A DNA stretch of 11,637 nucleotides from Minisyncoccota bacterium (GTDB taxonomy: Bacteria > Patescibacteriota > Minisyncoccia > UBA6257 > GWB1-50-10). The position numbers and the translations under genes are program-made. The stretch lies in contig JAGUWR010000050.1 in NCBI GenBank assembly GCA_020062265.1, positions 1-11,637 of the forward strand, in the 5' to 3' direction. The notes beneath the pieces are model-generated. The model was given only the letters and a program-made list of their open reading frames with translations. It was not told the DNA's origin and did no database searches. Shown here in pieces: positions 2,643-10,199 of the stretch (position 1 is the stretch's first letter; each line of letters starts with the position of its first letter).

Positions 2643-3428
2643 TCATTCATCTTTCAACTCTGATTTTTTGAACAAGCTAATAATTTTTTGGAATTCTTTT
2701 GGTTTTGAGCTTACCCCGCCTACTAAAGCGCCGTCAATTTCTTTTTGGCTCAGAAAACCGGCAACGTTTTTTGAAGTGACCGAACCGCCGTAAAGTACTT
2801 TAACTCGAAACTTATAACTTATAACTAATAACTTTTTTATGTACTTTGCCATTTCCGCTGTGTCTTCTGGTTTATCACCCCGGCCGGTGCCGATGGCCCA
2901 GATTGGTTCGTAGGCAATGACTAATGACCGATGACTGATGACTGATGACTTTACGCCTCTTAAGTCTTTAGTGAGTTGATTTTTGACGTATTTTTTTGCT
3001 TCTCTTTCATTCCGCGTTAATCCGCGTGAAGTCCGCGTAAATCCGCGTTCTATCGGTTCGCCGACACAAAGAATCACTTTTAATCCGGCGGCAAGGGCAG
3101 CTTTCACTTTCTTATTAATTACTTCATCGGTCTCGCCCAAAGCTCGACGCTCCGAATGACCGATAATCACATATCTCACGCCAAACGATTTGAGCTGATC
3201 GGGCGATACTTCCCCGGTATAGGCGCTTCCGCCAGCCGGCGAATTCTCCCAAAAAACATCCTGGGCGCCAAGCCAAGCTTTTTTTACCAATTTTTTAATT
3301 GTTTTTAAAAAAATAAACGGCGGCGCAATGACCACATTTGAAGCGTCAATTTTCTTAGCCAGAACCAATGCTTCGCTCTCGCCGACTGGGTTCATTTTCC
3401 AATTGGCGATGATTAATTTTTGCATCAT
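2643..3428 (-). CDS. tpiA: Triosephosphate isomerase
   Basis: Interconverts dihydroxyacetone phosphate and glyceraldehyde 3-phosphate in the cytoplasmic glycolytic pathway. The 261-residue product keeps all catalytic elements: N9 and K11 in ANWKMN, H91 in IIGHSERR (88-95), E174 in AYEPIWAIGTG (172-182, including flexible loop 6), and YGGSV (213-217). Length is slightly above the usual 250 or so because three separate short-repeat tracts are read in frame: residues about 127-140 (RGFTRTSRGLTRN), about 161-172 (SSVISHRSLVI) and about 198-207 (VISYKFR). All fall between catalytic strands in surface loops or helix ends, so activity is probably kept. The ATG overlaps the galT stop as ATGA, which suggests translational coupling; a second Met follows at once and could be the true start. 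Confidence 0.97.
   Translation of the reverse strand: MMQKLIIANWKMNPVGESEALVLAKKIDASNVVIAPPFIFLKTIKKLVKKAWLGAQDVFWENSPAGGSAYTGEVSPDQLKSFGVRYVIIGHSERRALGETDEVINKKVKAALAAGLKVILCVGEPIERGFTRTSRGLTRNEREAKKYVKNQLTKDLRGVKSSVISHRSLVIAYEPIWAIGTGRGDKPEDTAEMAKYIKKLLVISYKFRVKVLYGGSVTSKNVAGFLSQKEIDGALVGGVSSKPKEFQKIISLFKKSELKDE
2811..2834. repeat. Heptamer repeat inside tpiA, site 1
   Basis: Plus-strand units CTTATAA, CTTATAA, CTAATAA, then a partial CTT. Read on the minus strand it encodes LVISYKFR just before the conserved VKVLYGGSV strand. It takes the place of the variable helix end found here in other TIM proteins. Confidence 0.8.
2914..2948. repeat. Heptamer repeat inside tpiA, site 2
   Basis: Five 7-bp units on the plus strand: GCAATGA, CTAATGA, CCGATGA, CTGATGA, CTGATGA. 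The minus strand reads them as SSVISHRSLVIA, which runs straight into the catalytic AYEPIW block. 21 bp equals three units and seven codons, so the frame repeats every three units. Confidence 0.85.
3011..3049. repeat. 10/11-bp TCCGCGT repeat inside tpiA, site 3
   Basis: Four copies beginning TCCGCGT start at 3011, 3021, 3032 and 3042 (spacing 10, 11, 10). On the minus strand they encode RGFTRTSRGLTRN after CVGEPIE. This adds residues not present in the usual CVGE(x)LEERE segment of TIM. Confidence 0.85.
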
Positions 3429-4456
3429 TTCTTTAATATTTTAGCCGCTTCGTCAGGATCAACCGGATTAATTTCAATGCCGGTGCCAAGCTCGAAACCG
3501 GCCGAGATATTAGTTTTTGGAATAACTTCAATGTGCCAATGGTAATTCTTGTATTTGTTCTTATTTTGAATGGGGGCGGTATGGATGAAAAAGTTGTAAT
3601 CAGGATCGCTAAGTTTGCTTTTTATTTTTCTCAAACCTGTCTGCAAGGCCTCCACCGCATATCCTAATTCTAAATCAAGAGTATTCTCAAAGTAAGGGAG
3701 ATGTTTTTGGGGAAATATTCTCAATTCAAAAGGTTCGCGTGATACAAACGGCGTAAAGACAACAGCCCCATCGTTTTCATAAATAATTCGTTTCTTCTCC
3801 CTTTGTTCATAACTAATAATATCGCAATGGACGCAGCGCCGATATTTTTTGAAATAATTCAGCGAACCGGTAAGCGAATGTTTGATATCCGGCGGTACAA
3901 CCGGTAAAGCCAAAAGCTGATAATGGGGATGGTATACCGAAGCGCCGGCGGCCGGACCCCAATTGTGGAAAATTGAAATATAAGCAAGACAAGGATCATC
4001 TAAAAGCATTAGATAGCGATCGCGGAACGCTTCAAAGACTTGATTGGCCTGGCTCGGTTTGAGGTCAACAAAATTCTTATCGTGGTCGCGAGTGATAATA
4101 ACGTCGTGATGGCCGATTCCTTCGGCTACCAAATAAGGACCATCGCGGAAAGAATCGGCGCAGACCTTGTGATGAACAACGGCCGGATATTTATTTTCCA
4201 CAACTACCAATTCCCAGCCGCGTTTGCTCTCATATACTAAAATTGGTTTGTGACTCTTTAAAGGATTTTCAAAAGGACAATTTTTCTTGGGCCGATATGA
4301 CTTATAGGTCTTATTGGTCCTATTGGACCTATCGGCCAAAAAAGTCTGCGGCTTTTTGCCCCGCTTCGGCGCGATAAGAATCCAATCGCCGGAAACCAAA
4401 TCTTGTCTTAATTCAGACCTATTGGACTTATTGGACTTATTGGACTTATAAATCAT
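3425..4456 (-). CDS. galT: Galactose-1-phosphate uridylyltransferase-like protein (HIT superfamily)
   Basis: GalT enzymes move a nucleotidyl group between sugar phosphates through a covalent histidine intermediate. This 343-residue protein has the active-site motif YHPHYQ (175-180), with H178 as the expected nucleophile, and the second-half motif NYHWHIEVIP (304-313). GHHDVIITRDHD (115-126) matches the region carrying a zinc-ligand His. In the first cysteine pair only C60 is present (CPFE, not CxxC), while CVHC (208-211) lies further on. Substrate is therefore uncertain: UDP-glucose/galactose-1-phosphate exchange is likely, but a related ADP-sugar phosphorylase is possible. No other Leloir gene is in the window. 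Two 9-mer tracts are translated: the N-terminus (YKSNKSNKSNRS, 3-14) and SNRTNKTYKSYRP (44-56). The start overlaps the preceding gene by 11 bp, and its stop overlaps tpiA. Confidence 0.9.
   Translation of the reverse strand: MIYKSNKSNKSNRSELRQDLVSGDWILIAPKRGKKPQTFLADRSNRTNKTYKSYRPKKNCPFENPLKSHKPILVYESKRGWELVVVENKYPAVVHHKVCADSFRDGPYLVAEGIGHHDVIITRDHDKNFVDLKPSQANQVFEAFRDRYLMLLDDPCLAYISIFHNWGPAAGASVYHPHYQLLALPVVPPDIKHSLTGSLNYFKKYRRCVHCDIISYEQREKKRIIYENDGAVVFTPFVSREPFELRIFPQKHLPYFENTLDLELGYAVEALQTGLRKIKSKLSDPDYNFFIHTAPIQNKNKYKNYHWHIEVIPKTNISAGFELGTGIEINPVDPDEAAKILKK
4299..4336. repeat. 9-mer repeat array inside galT
   Basis: Plus-strand units GACTTATAG, GTCTTATTG, GTCCTATTG, GACCTATCG, then GC. 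The array contains both GGTCC and GGACC forms. It is translated as SNRTNKTYKSYRP, residues 44-56 of GalT, in the variable stretch before CPFE. Confidence 0.85.
4416..4451. repeat. 9-mer repeat array at the GT2/galT junction
   Basis: Four plus-strand units: GACCTATTG, GACTTATTG, GACTTATTG, GACTTATAA. The minus strand reads them as the N-terminus of GalT (YKSNKSNKSNRS). In another frame the last unit gives the TAA stop of the GT2 gene. The 11-bp gene overlap lies at the array edge. Confidence 0.88.
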
Positions 4457-5183
4457 ATTTGTTAGTCCACAGCCACCATCTTACCCTTAAAACGTCCCAA
4501 AAAACCGAGAGATAACTTTTGAGACCGACGGCTGAACGCGGGTCATTCACCCACACTATCGGAATCTCTTTAATTTTATAACCTAATTTTTTAGCAAGCG
4601 CCAACGCTTCGGGGTCAAACCCGAAACGATTAATTTTTGAAATATTAAAAATCTGCTCGGCGGCTCTGGCGGTAAAACATTTAAAACCGCACTGGGTATC
4701 CCGAATGCCCGGTAAAAGGAGTGCTTGAATAATAAGATTGCCGATGTCGCCCAGCAGTCGCCGATACCAAGGCTGGGGCGGCTCTAATTTTGCCCCTTCA
4801 ATATCCCGAGAGCCAAAAACAATGTCATATTTTTCTCCGCTTTGATCGGAAAAATACGGCCGCAATTTTTGGAATTGATCAATAGAGGTAGAATTGTCAG
4901 CATCGGTGAAAATCCGGAGTTCACCTTTTGCGCTAAGCATCCCCTGTCTCACTACCCGGCCCTTGCCGTGGTTGTCCTTGTTATCAATCAGACGGAGGTT
5001 GGGGATAAGATGAGCGAAACGTTTGACAACATCAGCGGTCTCGTCGCGCGAACCGTCATTGACCACAATAATCTCGTAAGGGAAATTAAATTTTGAGATA
5101 TGACGATTGATGTCAACCAACGTCAGCGGCAGACGTTTGGCTTCGTTATAGGCGGGAATTATAACGGAAAGAAATGGTTTCAT
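4446..5183 (-). CDS. GT2 glycosyltransferase, ALG5/DPM1-like polyprenyl-phosphate sugar synthase
   Basis: Predicted to transfer a hexose from a nucleotide sugar to polyprenyl phosphate at the cytoplasmic membrane face. The 245-residue product is a single GT-A domain: SVIIPAYNEAKRLP (6-19), IIVVNDGSRDET (38-49), the metal-binding DAD in FTDADNST (92-99), FGSRDIEG (123-130), and DTQCGFKCF (162-170) followed by FGFDPE (187-192). The DTQCGFK block is typical of dolichyl-phosphate glucose synthase (ALG5) relatives, and no C-terminal membrane domain is present. The sugar cannot be read from sequence. It follows gtrA by 57 bp of repeats, a common functional pairing in which GtrA-type proteins handle the lipid-linked sugar made by such enzymes. 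The last residues (TNKYDL) and stop are encoded by a 9-mer repeat shared with the start of galT. Confidence 0.92.
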   Translation of the reverse strand: MKPFLSVIIPAYNEAKRLPLTLVDINRHISKFNFPYEIIVVNDGSRDETADVVKRFAHLIPNLRLIDNKDNHGKGRVVRQGMLSAKGELRIFTDADNSTSIDQFQKLRPYFSDQSGEKYDIVFGSRDIEGAKLEPPQPWYRRLLGDIGNLIIQALLLPGIRDTQCGFKCFTARAAEQIFNISKINRFGFDPEALALAKKLGYKIKEIPIVWVNDPRSAVGLKSYLSVFWDVLRVRWWLWTNKYDL

Positions 5184-5185
5184 GG

Positions 5186-5253
5186 TTTTAACTTATGACT
5201 TAAAACTATTAACTTATAACGGCGGGTTATTAGTTATAAGTTATTGGTTATTA
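5186..5253. repeat. Head-to-head heptamer arrays between gtrA and GT2 (possible hairpin)
   Basis: Five 7-bp units (TTTTAAC, TTATGAC, TTAAAAC, TATTAAC, TTATAAC; 5186-5220), a GGCGG spacer (5221-5225), then four units in opposite orientation (GTTATTA, GTTATAA, GTTATTG, GTTATTA; 5226-5253). The inner 15-base arms (5206-5220 and 5226-5240) pair at 12 of 15 positions. This fills the gene gap and encodes the end of GtrA. It could act as an mRNA stem-loop. Confidence 0.8.
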
Positions 5254-5855
5254 GTTGCACGAAATACAACGTGCCGGTAGCTCAAAAAGTTCCAGAGCAT
5301 TGCAACAAAAACCGCCATGACCGCTCCGACATTCGCCCAAAGTTTTGGCTCAAAGCCGGCGGGCGGACCGATAACGTTTACAATAAGGGAAGCGACGCTC
5401 ACATTAATCAAAGTGCCGATGAAAGTGAAGAACAAAAAACGGGCATACTCTTGCGGCGCAACCGGCATTCGGCTTTGAAACGTCCAGAACTTGTTCCAAA
5501 AATAGCTGTTAGTGGTAGCGACGAGAAAAGAAATTGCTTTGAAACCGCTGAAGTAAAAACCGGCGGCGATGTCCGTTGAATAAATAAGAAGATTAAGAAC
5601 GCCGAGATCCAACAAAGTATTGAGGGTGCCGACGGCGGCGAATTTTCCGAATTGACCCAATACTTTCCAGAAACGACTCAAGAAATTTAAAATAACAAGG
5701 GCAATCGGCGCAAAAACAGTAAAACCGGCAACGGAAATAAAAACCAAAAGAGGAGTGATTCTTAAGCCGATATTGGCGGCGGGTAGAAGCACCAGCCAGC
5801 CGACAAGAAAACCGATAATTGAAACAATATAGTAATCTTTGAAGTCATAAGTCAT
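5241..5855 (-). CDS. GtrA-family membrane protein with extra N-terminal membrane pair
   Basis: GtrA-family proteins are small four-helix membrane proteins proposed to flip undecaprenyl-phosphate-linked sugars. The core lies at residues 67-200: GQFGKFAAVGTLNTLLDLGVLNLL (from 67), NSYFWNKFWTFQ (116-127), and a last helix ending in WNFLSYRHVVF (188-198). About 66 residues precede the core and add two further hydrophobic segments (about 10-26 and 34-60), so the 204-residue protein is longer than the usual 120-150. The start is set by a heptamer repeat that places ATG at 5862, 5855 and 5848 in three different frames; only 5855 opens this gene, while 5862 reaches a stop after five codons. The last four residues (TNNQ) and the TAA are also repeat-encoded. 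It is 10 bp downstream of the ATPase gene. Confidence 0.9.
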   Translation of the reverse strand: MTYDFKDYYIVSIIGFLVGWLVLLPAANIGLRITPLLVFISVAGFTVFAPIALVILNFLSRFWKVLGQFGKFAAVGTLNTLLDLGVLNLLIYSTDIAAGFYFSGFKAISFLVATTNSYFWNKFWTFQSRMPVAPQEYARFLFFTFIGTLINVSVASLIVNVIGPPAGFEPKLWANVGAVMAVFVAMLWNFLSYRHVVFRATNNQ

Positions 5856-5868
5856 TGGTCATTAGTTA
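5842..5868. repeat. Heptamer array forming the ATPase/gtrA junction
   Basis: On the minus strand the units AATAACT, AATGACC, AATGACT and TATGACT follow each other. They supply the TAA stop of the ATPase gene (5866-5868) and three ATG triplets 7 bp apart, at 5862, 5855 and 5848. The second opens gtrA. Confidence 0.85.
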
Positions 5869-8220
5869 TTGTCTAAGTCTCTTGTAAATCTCCATCTCCA
5901 CTTCCTCGCGCGGCCGACCGTATTTCACTCTAGATAATTCTTTTAGTTTCGCTGCTTGATCCGGATCGCCCCGTTCGGAGAGAAGTGTCTTAATATTGAA
6001 CGGTTTAGCCGTCTCGCCCTGAACGAGAAACTTCACGTAGGCATTAAAATTATCAATGTTAATCAAATCCTGATCTTTAAAGACGGGCTCAAATTGTTTA
6101 ACCAAAAACTCGGCGTCGGCCGCCCCCACCCGGAACGAAACAATGGACCCAACGTTGCCGAACACCGCCTCTCTGATTTTCTCCGGCAACTGAGCGATGA
6201 ATTGGTGGGCGATGGTTAAATTAAGACGGTACTTGCGGGCTTCGGAAAGAATAACAGCAATGGAGTCGGTGGTAAAATTCTGAAATTCATCAATGAAAAG
6301 ATAGAAATCGCGGCGCTGCTCTTGAGGAATATCAACTCGGCTCAAAGCCGCCTTAAGGAGTTTGCCCGCTACAATCATACCGAGAAGATTGGCATTGACG
6401 TCGCCGATTCGGCCTTTTGAGAGGTTAACAAGAAAAATTTTCCCGTTATCAATGACTTCCCTGAACTCAAAAGCCGATCGGGGCTGGCCGATTATCGGCC
6501 GCACATAGTCATTAGCGGTGAAAGTATTAAATTTGGAAGTGATATAAGGCGTAATATTGGCAAGCGATGCTTCACCGCCGGCTTTGCTTGCTTCCTTTTC
6601 CCAAAAATCAATGACAACCGGATTTTTAATCCGCCCGATTTTGCGAGCCCGGAAAACGGCGTCAGAGAAAACTCTCGGCACTTCCATCAGAGTCGCCGCT
6701 TCATTAACCGCATCCTCCATAAGAAGAAGAACCGCGTTTCTCATATACTGCTCAAACATCGGCCCGCCGGTCAGTTTAAGATCGTAAAGTTTGTCAAAAA
6801 TATTGACGAGCTCGTTAACGATGAAGGTTTTTTCTTCGGGGCGGCTAAGGTTGTACTCAAGCATATTGAGACCAACCGGTCGAGTGAGATCGCCGGGGTC
6901 AAAAACAATAACATCGTCAAGGCGATGCTTGGGTATAGAACCAAGGATGCCCTCGATTAAATCGCCGTGAGGATCAAGAACAGAAACGCCCTTGCCCCGC
7001 CTTATATCTTCAACCGCCATATTAGTGAGAAGATTGGACTTGCCGGTGCCGGTTTGGCCGATGATATAGATATGGCGGCGGCGATCCTCATCACCGATTC
7101 TCACTTCTTTTGATTCGCCTCTAAAAGAGCTGTGGCCGATAAAGACGCCGTCTTTCACCAGGTTAGCCGGCGGCGGCGCTTCTCTCGCTTTAAGATGCTT
7201 GATTTTAGGAATAGCGGTGAAAGACGTCGGGAAATGAAAAATGCTTGCCAGTTCCTCGCTATTAAGAATGACTGTTTGATCTTCATTAAATTTACGGAAA
7301 GAAAATTGGTGGATAATTTTGTTAAAATTCTTCAGCCGAACCACTCTTAATTCATTCCGGCCAGGCGCGCCGAACTGAGCAAAACCTTCGGCCATGCCGC
7401 TGAGAAGGGCATCAGCTTGCAACTGGCTGGGCCCTGAAGCGATTAACCGAATGTTAACTTCAAAAAGCGGTTTGGCTGATTTCATTTCAACGGCTTTAAT
7501 CGCTAATTCGTCTATAATTTTCTCTTTTGGCTCTTCTTTAGCTTTGCCTCTAAGCGCTTCGGCAAAATCTGACAGTGGAATTGAAAGAGGGTGACTAAGA
7601 ATATCGCTCATTTTCCAACCTTTTTTAAGAGCTCGGAACGCGGAAAAAATATGTTTCTTATATTGAGGGGCTGACTTGACGACGATTTGAAGCGCCGCTC
7701 CCTCGCCAACTTCATTAACTTTGGCCAGGCCGCCAAGAATAGGCAGAAAAGTATCGGCGTTCATCTCTTGGTAGGTCCGAATCGGGAGAATAAAACGCTC
7801 CTTCTGTTTTACCGAAGCAACCGCTGTCGCTCCTGAATAGTTAAAAACATTATAGTCATCAACTTGTTTTACCTCGGCCTCGCTCCAGATTGACTGAATC
7901 TCTCGGGCCAGCACCTCACCTAAACTGATAGGGACGGCAATGTAGAAATGTATCTCCTCACCCACATAAGGAACGGCAACTTCAAAAATAAAAGGTTTCT
8001 TAAAAGTAGCGAAAGAACTAATGAGCTGTTCGGTGATATTGATTTCTTCTTTAACGTCTTTGCCCTGCTCTTTAACGCTGTAAGGCAAACGGATAAGAAA
8101 AAGTTTTAATTGGAGCGATTCCAAAATTTTCCGCCGGCGGACTCGGCGGCGGAAAAAATAGACCGCCACCCCGACGAGCACTACCAAAATAAAAATAAAA
8201 TAAATATAGAAACTGGTCAT
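5866..8220 (-). CDS. Membrane-anchored VirD4/TraD/HerA-like ATPase
   Basis: A putative DNA-pumping or coupling ATPase of the FtsK/HerA superfamily. The 784-residue protein has one N-terminal membrane segment (about 4-23) followed by a basic stretch (FFRRRVRRRK). A long region at 40-350 of the type found ahead of the motor in CPR homologues comes next, then the motor: Walker A GQTGTGKS (388-395), VLDPHGDLIEG (414-424), FDPGD (440-444), and Walker B FYLFIDEFQNF (639-649, D644 and E645). AHQFIAQLP (671-679) fits the sensor region, and IKTLLSERGDP (743-753) lies near the end. Its ATG directly abuts the TAG of the preceding 138-aa gene, so the two are probably translated together. No relaxase, VirB4, pilin or other type IV secretion gene is visible. 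A role in conjugation, DNA uptake or another export process is therefore open; motor identity is secure. Confidence 0.93.
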   Translation of the reverse strand: MTSFYIYFIFILVVLVGVAVYFFRRRVRRRKILESLQLKLFLIRLPYSVKEQGKDVKEEINITEQLISSFATFKKPFIFEVAVPYVGEEIHFYIAVPISLGEVLAREIQSIWSEAEVKQVDDYNVFNYSGATAVASVKQKERFILPIRTYQEMNADTFLPILGGLAKVNEVGEGAALQIVVKSAPQYKKHIFSAFRALKKGWKMSDILSHPLSIPLSDFAEALRGKAKEEPKEKIIDELAIKAVEMKSAKPLFEVNIRLIASGPSQLQADALLSGMAEGFAQFGAPGRNELRVVRLKNFNKIIHQFSFRKFNEDQTVILNSEELASIFHFPTSFTAIPKIKHLKAREAPPPANLVKDGVFIGHSSFRGESKEVRIGDEDRRRHIYIIGQTGTGKSNLLTNMAVEDIRRGKGVSVLDPHGDLIEGILGSIPKHRLDDVIVFDPGDLTRPVGLNMLEYNLSRPEEKTFIVNELVNIFDKLYDLKLTGGPMFEQYMRNAVLLLMEDAVNEAATLMEVPRVFSDAVFRARKIGRIKNPVVIDFWEKEASKAGGEASLANITPYITSKFNTFTANDYVRPIIGQPRSAFEFREVIDNGKIFLVNLSKGRIGDVNANLLGMIVAGKLLKAALSRVDIPQEQRRDFYLFIDEFQNFTTDSIAVILSEARKYRLNLTIAHQFIAQLPEKIREAVFGNVGSIVSFRVGAADAEFLVKQFEPVFKDQDLINIDNFNAYVKFLVQGETAKPFNIKTLLSERGDPDQAAKLKELSRVKYGRPREEVEMEIYKRLRQ

Positions 8221-8637
8221 CTAAATAATGCCCCGCTCTTTGAGAATGGGCAGAAGCTTATCAACCAACGCGTCATGAAAGGCGTCGGCCACAAAAGGCG
8301 GCTGCTGCTGCGCTTGCCGGATGACTTTATCAAGACCTTCGTGAAAAATCATATCAATCAGTCGCCCCACCTCGAGCTTAACTTCCGGCGGTGTGCTTTC
8401 GTCTTGAAGGTACGAAGGCAACATAGCCGCCACCGGCTGCGACGACGGCTCTACCGCTCCAGTTGTCGGCTCTGACGGAAGTTCTTTCTCTTCGTGAAAT
8501 ACCTTAAGCGATTCCCGCACTAATTCCCACTCGGGCTTTTTTTCAACTTCGGGCGCGGAACGGCGTTCTTTAATCTCGGCTGTCAACCGCTGAAGATCCC
8601 GTTCAAGAGCTTCGTGGAAATTCTTCACCTTTGGCAT
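8221..8637 (-). CDS. Small hydrophilic protein upstream of the VirD4-like ATPase, function unknown
   Basis: I do not recognise a named domain. From the ATG at 8637 the product is 138 residues with no membrane segment. Residues 1-50 are charged and probably helical (FHEALERDLQRLTAEIKERR). Residues 51-72 form a Pro/Ser/Thr-rich linker. Residues 73-138 form a compact, probably conserved module: LPSYLQDE, PPEVKLEVGRLIDMIFHEGL, a QQQPP turn at 111-114, then VDKLLPILKERG. The frame stays open further upstream to a possible start at 8772, but that would run through the promoter and 118 bp into the divergent gene, so 8637 is preferred. It ends exactly where the ATPase gene begins (TAG then ATG, no gap), which suggests a partner or regulator of that ATPase; this is inference from position. 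Confidence 0.82.
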   Translation of the reverse strand: MPKVKNFHEALERDLQRLTAEIKERRSAPEVEKKPEWELVRESLKVFHEEKELPSEPTTGAVEPSSQPVAAMLPSYLQDESTPPEVKLEVGRLIDMIFHEGLDKVIRQAQQQPPFVADAFHDALVDKLLPILKERGII

Positions 8638-8649
8638 ATAATTATTATA
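8637..8649. promoter_or_regulatory. Putative symmetric bidirectional promoter with two facing -10 boxes
   Basis: The gap between the divergent starts (8637 minus, 8655 plus) holds a 13-bp inverted repeat, TATAAT-T-ATTATA. It reads as a perfect -10 box on the plus strand (8637-8642) and on the minus strand (8649-8644). With usual spacing, plus transcripts would start near 8649-8650, about five bases before ATG 8655, and minus transcripts near 8637, at the ATG itself. A minus -35-like TTTCCA lies 17 bp away (8672-8667, four of six matches); no good plus -35 is seen. Neither start has a Shine-Dalgarno site. Confidence 0.5.
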
Positions 8650-8654
8650 GAACA

Positions 8655-10199
8655 ATGACTCGGCGCTGGAAAACAACAATATTCCTCTTATTGACAATCC
8701 TCTTATTTGCCTCATTTCTCCGCCTCTATAATCTCGATCAAACTCCGCCCGGCCTTTATGCCGATGAAGCAATGTACGGCAACAACGCTATCCAAGCGCT
8801 TGACAGCGGGTCGCCGGACGGCGGTTTTAAGGTTTTTTATGAGGAGAACAACGGCCGCGAAGGGCTTTTTATTAACATCCAGGCAGTGTTTATAGGACTT
8901 ATAAGTCCTATCGGTCCTATTAGTCCTATCGGTCCTATAGGTCTACTTCGGTTGCCAAGCGCCATTTTTGGCATACTAACTGTCTTAGGAATTTACTTCC
9001 TCGCCAGAGAACTATTCCAAGAAAACTCTAAATCCGAACAGTTTAGGATTTCTCGTAGCGAGCTTATTGGTCTTTTCTCTTCTTTTTTGCTCGCTACGAG
9101 CTTTTGGCATCTCAATTTTTCCCGCATCGGTTTCCGCGCCATTATGGCGCCGTTTTTCTTAACCTGGGGGTTGTATTTTCTTATAAAATCCTATAATTGG
9201 TCCAATAAATCCTATTGGTCTTATTTATTGCCAATCCTCGCCGGCTTGGTTTACGGTCTCGGCTTTCACTCCTACATCGCCTACCGCGCCACTCCAATTT
9301 TAATTCTCTTAATTATTTATTGGATTTATCAATCTAATAAATCCAATTGGTCCTATTCGGCTAAAAAGAATTATTGGTTAACAACATTTCTCTTTCTAAC
9401 CGCCGCCATCTTAACAGCGCTACCGCTCGGCATCTACTTTTTAGAAAACCCCCAGGACTTTTTCGGCCGGACCGCCCAAATTTCTATTTTCGATTCCCCG
9501 ACTCCGTTGAAAGATTTAGGGATAAATATTCTAAAAACTCTGGGGATGTTCAATTTTGTCGGCGACCACAACTGGCGGCACAATATCGCCGGCAATCCGC
9601 TTCTCTTCTGGCCGGTCGGCGTTCTCTTCCTTATCGGTCTTGCCGCAACAATGGTGAAAACTTCCAAAACTTCGCCGGAGCGATTCCCGGCGGTAATCAT
9701 TCTTACTTGGTTTATAGTCGCCGCTCTCCCGGTCATTATCTCAAACGAAGGAATGCCTCACGCTCTCCGAGCTATCCTGATGGCGCCGCCCGTCTTTATT
9801 TTGGCCGGCTTCGGCGGCATGTGGCTTTACGAAAAAATTAGACCAATAAGACCTATTAAACTTATTGGTCTTATAGGTCTTATGGCTTTTATCGCGGTCA
9901 ATACTTACGTCTCTTATTTCATTGTCTGGGCGCGACAGCCGGCCGTCGCCGACGCTTTCCACCAGCGCTATGTCGAAATTGGCCGATATATTAATAGTTT
10001 GCCAAAAGAAACTCCTAAGTACATAGTCATTGACACTGGCGGCCACGACGTCCGCAAAATCGGCACGCCGGCCCAACCGATAATGTTCATCACCGACACT
10101 TTCCTGCTTTCAAAACAAAAAGAAAAAAATCTCCACTATATCTCGTCGGAGCAAATAGAGTCCGTCCCGGCCGGCAGCTTTGTCATCACCATTGACTGA
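8655..10199 (+). CDS. GT-C glycosyltransferase, ArnT/PMT-like integral membrane protein
   Basis: Predicted to transfer a sugar from a polyprenyl-phosphate donor to an acceptor on the outer side of the membrane. From ATG 8655 the product is 514 residues, with many membrane segments starting at about 7-23. The first extracellular loop carries LYADEAMYGNNA (34-45), where D37-E38 is the acidic GT-C motif position. NNGREGLF (65-72) follows, as in ArnT/PMT-like proteins. GFHSYIAYRATP (203-214) and SNEGMPHALRA (363-373) are further loop motifs. A short soluble tail (about 430-514) ends the protein. Four 9-mer repeat arrays are translated in frame at about 79-97, 179-190, 222-237 and 395-410. An in-frame TTG at 8631 would lengthen it, but ATG 8655 sits after the promoter. 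The likely donor route is the nearby GT2 and GtrA pair; the acceptor is unknown. Confidence 0.9.
   Translation: MTRRWKTTIFLLLTILLFASFLRLYNLDQTPPGLYADEAMYGNNAIQALDSGSPDGGFKVFYEENNGREGLFINIQAVFIGLISPIGPISPIGPIGLLRLPSAIFGILTVLGIYFLARELFQENSKSEQFRISRSELIGLFSSFLLATSFWHLNFSRIGFRAIMAPFFLTWGLYFLIKSYNWSNKSYWSYLLPILAGLVYGLGFHSYIAYRATPILILLIIYWIYQSNKSNWSYSAKKNYWLTTFLFLTAAILTALPLGIYFLENPQDFFGRTAQISIFDSPTPLKDLGINILKTLGMFNFVGDHNWRHNIAGNPLLFWPVGVLFLIGLAATMVKTSKTSPERFPAVIILTWFIVAALPVIISNEGMPHALRAILMAPPVFILAGFGGMWLYEKIRPIRPIKLIGLIGLMAFIAVNTYVSYFIVWARQPAVADAFHQRYVEIGRYINSLPKETPKYIVIDTGGHDVRKIGTPAQPIMFITDTFLLSKQKEKNLHYISSEQIESVPAGSFVITID
8891..8944. repeat. 9-mer repeat array in the GT-C gene, site 1, with 20-bp palindrome
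   Basis: Six units: TATAGGACT, TATAAGTCC, TATCGGTCC, TATTAGTCC, TATCGGTCC, TATAGGTCT. The first unit is inverted relative to the rest, which creates a perfect 20-bp palindrome at 8892-8911 (half site ATAGGACTTA). Translated as IGLISPIGPISPIGPIGL. Confidence 0.9.
9030..9100. repeat. 12-bp perfect inverted repeat plus nested 6-bp inverted repeat inside the GT-C gene
   Basis: CTCGTAGCGAGC (9052-9063) and GCTCGCTACGAG (9089-9100) are exact reverse complements with a 25-base spacer. Just upstream, AAATCC (9030-9035) and GGATTT (9046-9051) pair as well. All lie in coding sequence for residues about 126-149 (NSKSEQF to LLATS). Confidence 0.8.
9191..9225. repeat. 9-mer repeat array in the GT-C gene, site 2
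   Basis: A degenerate array of the same family, including TTGGTCCAA (9198-9206) and TTGGTCTTA (9215-9223). CCAATA (9202-9207) and TATTGG (9213-9218) form a small inverted repeat. Translated as NWSNKSYWSYLL at residues 181-192. Confidence 0.75.
9320..9364. repeat. 9-mer repeat array in the GT-C gene, site 3, with inverted 9-mers
   Basis: Units TTGGATTTA, TCAATCTAA, TAAATCCAA, TTGGTCCTA, TTCGGCTAA. The first and third are exact reverse complements one unit apart, so a 9-bp stem with a 9-base loop is possible. Translated as YQSNKSNWSYSAK (residues 225-237). Confidence 0.82.
9838..9882. repeat. 9-mer repeat array in the GT-C gene, site 4, with 10-bp inverted repeat
   Basis: Units TTAGACCAA, TAAGACCTA, TTAAACTTA, TTGGTCTTA, TAGGTCTTA. 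GACCAATAAG (9841-9850) and CTTATTGGTC (9861-9870) are perfect inverted repeats with a 10-base loop. Translated as IRPIRPIKLIGLIGL, which leads into a membrane helix. Confidence 0.85.

Follow-up and report, generated by a model that had tools for sequence, protein, structure and literature searches.

The window analysed here is an 11,637-nucleotide stretch of DNA from a Minisyncoccota bacterium of the Patescibacteria (assembly GCA_020062265.1, contig JAGUWR010000050.1), and corresponds to contig 17 of a 331,095 bp assembly (parent genome G000) that is 67.8% complete. Two of its genes, galT and a gene for a GT-C-like membrane protein, carry tandem arrays of a degenerate 9 bp unit. These arrays, together with a putative four-helix-bundle gene that accompanies the same repeat class in other genomes, are the subject of this report. 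The six arrays previously described from the sequence alone (the original prediction), two in galT and four in the GT-C gene, were all found at their sites and are given below with their host genes.

galT, 3425-4456, minus strand: host of arrays 1 and 2; PF01087, PF16268 and HIT matches
Array 1, 4287-4340, plus strand (the strand scanned; the unit is self-complementary): TTGGGCCGA TATGACTTA TAGGTCTTA TTGGTCCTA TTGGACCTA TCGGCCAAA; inside galT, codes for a loop; RNA hairpin z -4.9
Array 2, 4413-4448, plus strand: GalT N-terminus, KSNKSNKSNRS; no hairpin excess, z +0.7
GT-C-like membrane protein gene, 8649-10199, plus strand: host of arrays 3-6; no Pfam match, name GT-C taken from the original prediction
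Array 3, 8893-8946, plus strand: GT-C gene, GLISPIGPISPIGPIGL; RNA fold z -2.6
Array 4, 9197-9223, minus strand: GT-C gene, WSNKSYWS, loop between membrane segments; RNA fold z -2.5
Array 5, 9320-9364, plus strand: GT-C gene, WIYQSNKSNWSYSA; RNA fold z -4.2
Array 6, 9838-9882, minus strand: GT-C gene, RPIRPIKLIGLIGL, inverted-symmetric array; RNA fold z -4.9

Results

The repeat unit and its recurrence in the parent genome

The consensus of the unit is TNRGWCYNA, which equals its own reverse complement and is an odd palindrome, where the original prediction had spoken of a half-palindromic unit. Conservation, measured over 258 units that did not belong to the search seed, was 95% for T1, 95% for G4, 90% for C6 and 94% for A9, figures that are upper bounds because the array-extension rule favours these four bases, while positions 2, 3, 5, 7 and 8 are variable. 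The same positions vary in 126 units outside long open reading frames (ORFs), and this is why codon wobble, considered as the source of the variation at positions 2, 5 and 8 (ATN GGW CCN), was not retained. A role of the unit as a putative protein-binding or recombination site is plausible. Tandem Repeats Finder alone detects four of the six window arrays. Inverted symmetry within single arrays amounts to a small effect only (0.676, versus 0.662 when the order of units is shuffled; Wilcoxon p 4e-4) and GGTC-first arrays outnumber GGAC-first arrays by 33 to 14 (p 0.008); no argument is built on either.

Scanning 136,355 bp of G000 with a weight matrix gave 18 arrays of 18-72 bp. The DNA scanned comprised the window (six arrays), 18 contig stretches picked by their contig numbers (108 kb, eight arrays) and two stretches chosen for their hits (four arrays). 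Twenty dinucleotide shuffles gave a mean of 0.25 arrays (maximum 1), and the reversed sequence none. In the same DNA, Tandem Repeats Finder, given no motif, returned 10 period-9 arrays, eight of which belong to the class TNRGWCYNA; this class covers 64 of the 14,572 possible 9-mer classes (0.44%). Over the whole of G000, 19 places match TTGGTCCTATTGGTCCTA with up to three mismatches, and the same pattern read backward matches none. RNA folding of the 18 arrays gave a mean z of -1.8 against shuffles, with 5/18 at or above 0.

All 18 arrays lie within ORFs, 16 of them in ten recognised genes (Pfam, except GT-C) and two in ORFs without a Pfam family:

Two or more arrays: GalT (2), GT-C (4), peptidyl-tRNA hydrolase Pth (2), isoleucyl-tRNA synthetase IleRS (2)
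One array each: class-V aminotransferase, L13, L16, type IV coupling ATPase, NusA N-terminus, PNPase

The arrays are thus not confined to galT and the GT-C gene. The proposed absence of arrays from other coding regions holds for the 9-mer within the window; however, tpiA carries 7 bp and 10 bp arrays, and other G000 genes hold 9-mers. T1 falls on codon position 3 in 13 of the 18 arrays, on position 2 in four and on position 1 in one. A 9 bp period keeps the reading frame, as had been proposed, but does not always leave it open, since certain units encode a stop in two phases out of three. The DNA class is the same in genes that are unrelated and that read it in three different phases, which bears out the earlier view that selection on the peptide is not the cause.

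Comparison with orthologues

The arrays were counted in G000 and 58 relatives, and 7/59 of these genomes match at two mismatches. A galT match is present in 33/59 and a GT-C orthologue in 19/59 (G000 included in each case); in alignment, the peptides coded by the arrays are not conserved among orthologues. The array 1 region of GalT spans 37 aa, compared with 29-33 aa (median 31) in 29 orthologues. Array 2 precedes the conserved SELRQD motif at the N-terminus, the relatives' start codons being putative. Among 17 GT-C relatives, the array 3 region (42 aa) compares with a median of 35 (34-42) and the array 5 region (47 aa) with a median of 40 (37-73), two of the 17 being longer; the array 4 loop (39 aa) varies anyway, from 34 to 101 aa. 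The array 6 region has 42 aa against a median of 44 in 15 GT-C relatives, and because its length is constant this array is taken as a replacement, not an insertion. Three of the six window arrays (1, 3 and 5) therefore constitute residues additional to most orthologues. Furthermore, the orthologue loci hold 53 arrays, 16 of them within the GalT or GT-C ORF, and some of the relatives' GT-C loops contain other short arrays, including 7-mers. In the GT-C relative L098 (G024), the peptide PAGRHG occurs twice in loops and is perhaps encoded by another dispersed palindromic repeat in coding DNA.

Distribution of the repeat class over bacteria

A pattern scan of GTDB representatives matched at least 118 stretches. 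The 80 matches listed include Prevotella and other Bacteroidales, Chlorobium, planctomycetes, Lentisphaeria, Acidobacteria, Hydrogenedentes, Desulfobacterales, Cloacimonadota and others. In these distant genomes, 6/16 further period-9 arrays lying off the seeds belong to the class TNRGWCYNA. Arrays (three units, one mismatch) were matched in 41/379 Patescibacteria genomes, and in 38/296 Bacteroidota genomes. Outside Patescibacteria the arrays lean to intergenic DNA, with 51 of 94 distinct arrays in ORFs of at least 200 aa, versus 84.5% for random placement, and 43/94 outside long ORFs. The three codon phases, the residues additional to orthologues, the recurrence in many bacterial groups and the occurrence outside long ORFs all support the original proposal, which stands in its core: a DNA spreading as nucleic acid, accommodated by loops and ends and not selected as peptide. 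The case is broader than the original prediction had it.

The genome of L109 (G443, Prevotellaceae UBA4336) has an extreme load, with 400 forward-strand pattern matches. In the Acidobacteria genome Centralia_MAG_134 (L116, L117, L120, L121, L135, L165 and L175), 9-mer triplets recur by eye within similar surroundings of about 50 bp, which gives the impression of a longer dispersed element.

A four-helix gene accompanies the arrays

In three of 12 Patescibacteria array loci viewed by eye, a four-helix gene is bracketed and interrupted by arrays. The three array-bracketed genes exceed the cut-offs of TIGR02436 and TIGR04258; against PF05635, for which the cut-off is 33.8, they score 30-35 bits. 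From these matches, the partner is predicted to be a four-helix-bundle gene of the 23S ribosomal RNA (rRNA) intervening-sequence protein family (23S-rRNA-IVP/S23), which is Avd-like, with the suffix domain TIGR04258. This gene is an addition to the original prediction. Our own hidden Markov models located the four-helix gene in 8/29 Patescibacteria array loci versus 0/57 control loci, and 4/80 array-selected loci hold it, always with an array in or at the gene. A structure model of one suffix protein had a mean pLDDT of 86.6, and no sequence match to this protein was present in the PDB. A fold search with the model returned nothing at E <=0.001; the sole relevant match was 2rld, of the S23 family (rank 3, E 0.66, probability 0.97, TMt 0.63), which lends weak support to an S23-like fold for the modelled protein. 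The suffix protein had no match in phages, and among plasmids it was present in one record, from Prevotella nigrescens, whose flanks have neither an inverted nor a direct match. By eye, several suffix-type genes (among L227, L277, L279, L281, L282 and L285) adjoin NVGIGTT-motif proteins or directly follow ones ending in F[ND]W[WF][IV][IV].

Array and gene also co-occur between genomes. TIGR04258 was detected in 35/379 Patescibacteria genomes (32 over the cut-off), and array and gene are both present in 23/379, where 3.8 are expected (Fisher 2e-17, kinship ignored). Likewise, TIGR04258 was detected in 41/296 Bacteroidota genomes and both in 24, with 5.3 expected (5e-15, kinship ignored); leaving aside four preselected genomes, both are present in 21/292, with 4.4 expected (2e-13). 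Among 50 genomes picked solely by the array, 40 have TIGR04258 (37 over the cut-off), versus 38 of the 292 Bacteroidota remaining without the preselected genomes (3e-21). One Bacteroidota genome (G654) holds four genes and 14 array matches, and the 13 among the matches listed all lie more than 90 kb from any gene.

Repeat geometry at four-helix genes

Loci of the suffix form were compared in 30 Patescibacteria, one per genome, from 44 matches. Blocks of the class TNRGWCYNA occur in 14/30 of them (39 blocks in 91 kb) versus 0/57 control loci (206 kb), and in only 1/30 loci of plain four-helix genes, where the block lies away from the gene. The blocks are located immediately upstream of the gene, in the linker ahead of the suffix domain and immediately downstream, with a few further out. 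Outside Patescibacteria, blocks are present in 18/25 suffix loci (upstream 11, linker 7, downstream 15). Stretches over a periodicity threshold of 0.7 at suffix loci all have period 9 (upstream 11/29, linker 16/30, downstream 11/29), whereas 8/171 control stretches exceed the threshold and none has period 9. Moreover, the flanks and linker within a Patescibacteria locus resemble each other beyond those of other loci (p 2e-3 to 7e-6); outside Patescibacteria the upstream and downstream flanks match each other (2e-5) and the linker matches are weak (0.05, 0.01).

The plain genes show a different arrangement. In 30 plain loci, the upstream flank scored a mean of 34.8 against the reverse complement of the downstream flank, versus 17.2 for mismatched loci; the inverted match exceeded the mismatched 95th percentile (p95) in 26/30 and the direct orientation in 1/30. 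The periods over a threshold of 0.8 were 7 (seven cases) and 8 (four cases). On plasmids, 13 of 28 matching records were examined, all cyanobacterial, giving 12 non-redundant loci with mean scores of 41.7 inverted, 25.1 direct and 19.9 mismatched; 7/12 lie above the p95, and inverted exceeds direct in 10/12. Some of the four-helix genes on these plasmids interrupt operons of CRISPR-Cas or ribonucleotide reductase, between cas6 and cas4, between cmr2 and cmr3, and between the nrd beta and alpha genes (L348, L350, L351 and L354). Among G000 and its 58 relatives, PF05635 is present in 43/59 genomes, G000 not being among them.

Presence and absence at conserved sites

In one genome (G063), the gene and 9-mers occupy 716 bp between two genes, and in another of the same genus (G192) the corresponding 191 bp hold neither array nor gene; with a flank identity of about 70%, either gain or loss may account for the difference. 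A clean case of presence and absence comes from Trichormus and Scytonema plasmids, which carry the plain four-helix unit, i.e. gene and inverted heptamers. At least six plasmids (H35-H40, among the matches listed), 97-98% identical over the aligned part, lack the approximately 430 bp holding that unit. The three empty plasmids examined have a 13 bp gap between the genes, with no repeat there. The empty site reads AAAAAGTAATTAAC, and the occupied site AAAAAGTAAT, then the unit (AAATCAG...TTCTTTG), then TAATTAAC; from this comparison of occupied and empty sequences, GTAAT stands on both sides of the unit, a duplication of 4-5 bp. At the Trichormus-type site, inspection by eye shows a remnant in Nostoc C052 and, in Brasilonema, a pair of inverted heptamer arrays without the gene. 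Furthermore, Calothrix NIES-4105 is without the four-helix unit between its nrd genes (85% identity).

Other repeat families in the window and genome

The window holds further short arrays:

tpiA, 2643-3428: TIM match PF00121; conserved gene with two 7 bp arrays and one 10 bp array
7 bp array AACTTAT, 2809-2834: inside tpiA, another family of the same kind
7 bp array ATGACTG, 2917-2950: inside tpiA
10 bp array TCCGCGTTAA, 3011-3049: inside tpiA
Two inverted 7 bp arrays around GGCGG, 5189-5256: gene-less hairpin in the DNA separating GT2 from GtrA; one 7 bp array is at 5226

The inverted score of the hairpin at 5189-5256 is 26, versus 14 for the direct orientation and a random p95 of 17, and it resembles the one on the Brasilonema plasmid. 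Further G000 repeat families, with less regular spacing, comprise GTCCGCGTAA-like and ACGAAT-like arrays at L010 1639-1674 and 4253-4293, L012 4486-4527 and L022 18603-19579.

Discussion

A single 9 bp repeat class lies in housekeeping genes of G000 and is associated with one gene family, both between genomes and by position. At conserved sites the repeats and gene are present or absent as a unit, and one hairpin without a gene stands at such a site, in Brasilonema. The 9-mer repeats and the four-helix gene together point to a tiny type of mobile DNA element not recognised before, and the window arrays are probably solo repeats of this family of very small mobile elements, to which they are assigned by sequence class because the partner gene was not seen in G000. 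The full element would consist of a four-helix-bundle gene (23S-rRNA-IVP/S23, Avd-related) between short tandem-repeat arrays, the suffix form (TIGR04258) pairing with 9 bp repeats, often TNRGWCYNA, and the plain genes mostly with 7-8 bp arrays whose flanks are inverted copies of each other. The four-helix protein may recognise the repeats as hairpin DNA or RNA, and repeats so recognised could be copied to new sites in the manner proposed for RAYT/REPINs. The likeness of PF05635 proteins to Avd hints, by analogy, at a nucleic-acid-copying context. Arrays landing in essential genes would persist only where reading frame and fold tolerate them, and those of G000 would be relics or be served by a gene in the missing third of the genome. 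As a more general and tentative proposal, which we hold to be possible, the IVP/S23/Avd four-helix superfamily may spread bacterial short tandem repeats, with protein architecture tracking the period, mostly 7-8 bp for plain genes and 9 bp for the suffix form. An element may place copies of its repeat elsewhere, even in essential genes or within its own coding sequence, by way of a hairpin or an RNA intermediate and with no known transposase.

Several observations weigh against the mobile-element reading. G000 has no PF05635 or TIGR04258 match in its 331 kb assembly (68% complete), and TIGR04258 exceeds the cut-off in 0/59 genomes (G000 and 58 relatives), though 7/59 have arrays. The gene is absent from 18/41 array genomes in Patescibacteria and 14/38 in Bacteroidota, and the array from 12/35 and 17/41 gene genomes, respectively. 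The co-occurrence statistics take no account of shared ancestry, and some of the Patescibacteria overlap comes from arrays located at the gene; when the count is restricted to arrays more than 2 kb away (among the matches listed, unlisted genomes counted as none), nine genomes share both (p 2.5e-4). The backward-read control pattern matches 7/379 Patescibacteria and 16/296 Bacteroidota genomes. The class block is absent from 16/30 Patescibacteria and 7/25 other suffix loci; most of those 16 show other 9 bp units by eye (AAGTNACTT, TAACNGTTA and more), with none clear in L286, L291 and L293. The period is no strict code, as the plain locus L270 has a best period of 9 (below the 0.8 threshold). 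On the plasmids, the Pseudanabaena arrays are direct and Calothrix PCC 7716 is without matching arrays, and an inverted partner was found for only 2/22 7/8-mer arrays of G000. No recombinase domain was detected in the three array-bracketed proteins scanned. Moreover, the clean empty site belongs to the 7-mer element, not the 9-mer, and mobility rests on presence/absence comparison, no movement having been observed.

Plain slippage would have the arrays arise from chance seeds during replication, helped by folding of the palindromic unit, with no need for a partner gene. In its favour are a period that stays fixed while units vary and RNA folding that, averaged over the 18 arrays, is stronger than in shuffles (mean z -1.8); many genomes are dominated by arrays of period 7, for which slippage has already been suggested (Mrazek 2007, cited in the excerpt of PMC4679880). 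We nevertheless consider it unlikely, given that a class of 0.44% of 9-mers accounts for 8/10 period-9 arrays in G000 and 6/16 further ones in distant genomes, that the arrays are associated with one gene family, and that the plasmid unit is present or absent as a whole, with a short duplication. Quite unlikely, too, is an order of events in which independent repeats came first and the four-helix gene is a parasite inserting into or beside them, at hairpin loops, like rRNA intervening sequences in the loops of rRNA helices. Solo arrays do far exceed genes (14 matches to four genes in G654) and many array genomes lack the gene; however, the empty plasmids at the Trichormus site and the 191 bp gap of G192 hold no repeat, and the linker inside the Patescibacteria gene bears the same unit as its flanks.

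If the arrays were instead sites by which the four-helix protein controls array-bearing genes, its own included, the palindromic unit and the arrays at the gene's own ends would be accounted for, and a translational role has been proposed for TAACTGA heptamers (MacGregor 2015, in the excerpt of PMC4679880). Such a regulon is improbable, because all 18 G000 arrays lie inside ORFs of unrelated function, in three phases, and no binder gene was found in G000. An assembly artefact is scarcely credible, and so is selection acting on the peptide to favour tripeptide repeats. The codon phase is uneven, with 13/18 arrays in the phase giving polar residues, but selection on the peptide was rejected on the grounds of the three codon phases and of aligned orthologues without the peptides; moreover, 43/94 arrays lie outside long ORFs and the class occurs in hundreds of independent assemblies.

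If the proposed spread of repeats by four-helix proteins is true, it would offer a joint explanation for the patchy trans-phylum repeats and for the cyanobacterial heptamers (STRR), and would provide a function for the orphan IVP family. Short tandem repeats occur in cyanobacteria, Beggiatoaceae, Bacteroidetes and now Patescibacteria, with no mover known so far, and no function is known for the IVP/S23 family, abundant as it is among bacteria, except for the Avd of diversity-generating retroelements (DGRs); a link between the two makes both questions testable. The element would be a mobile one of a few hundred bp whose repeats can enter essential genes, making the proteins longer. The odd low-complexity inserts that conserved proteins of these bacteria contain would thereby be explained, which is relevant to annotation and structure prediction.

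No paper tying IVP or other four-helix genes to flanking tandem repeats was found in the open-access literature. Known systems are compared here as far as the excerpts of the cited papers extend. The REPIN/RAYT system (Bertels and Rainey 2011, PMC3116915) likewise has short palindromic repeats in many dispersed copies that also flank a dedicated gene, inverted pairs, and lineage-specific families matched to lineage-specific genes. Its partner is a tyrosine transposase, whereas here it is IVP/Avd-like, with four helices, and the repeats are tandem 7-9 bp arrays; no transposase model (RAYT, Y1 tyrosine) matched the three array-bracketed genes, which matched four-helix models instead, G000 itself not having been searched for RAYT. 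Furthermore, REPINs are extragenic, whereas 18/18 G000 arrays and, elsewhere, 51/94 lie in ORFs (of at least 200 aa in the latter case). The intervening sequence of 23S rRNA with its S23/IVP gene (Coxiella, PMC4990558; insertions in rRNA of the candidate phyla radiation, PMC11270868) likewise places a PF05635 family protein between inverted repeats and is described as selfish. Elements of that type sit in an rRNA gene and undergo excision by RNase III; in contrast, the elements reported here lie between protein genes, with tandem arrays and gene-less copies in protein genes, and the IVP/S23 protein (PF05635/TIGR02436) is coded by full elements, not by the window arrays.

The heptamer short tandem repeats (TAACTGA, PMC4679880) are also short arrays of fixed period, patchy over phyla and without a known mover, and the heptamers at cyanobacterial four-helix genes belong to this type. 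The window unit differs in being 9 bp, palindromic and within genes, and the excerpt of PMC4679880 does not mention the partner gene. Rickettsia palindromic elements (PMC10969869) are similarly inserted in frame in unrelated protein genes and kept as extra residues, but are about 150 bp each, belong to Rickettsia and are not tandem 9-mers, with no partner reported in the excerpt. The DGR accessory protein Avd (PMC10053308) is resembled by PF05635 proteins, and its system too copies nucleic acid into new places. Miniature inverted-repeat transposable elements have terminal inverted repeats and a target-site duplication; the observations bearing on these come from the 7-mer plasmid element only, with GTAAT on both sides and a gene-less hairpin at the same site. 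The anatomy resembles that of REPIN/RAYT without that enzyme, the protein is that of the rRNA intervening sequences at another site, and the inserts in genes are like those of Rickettsia palindromic elements, yet of a different element.

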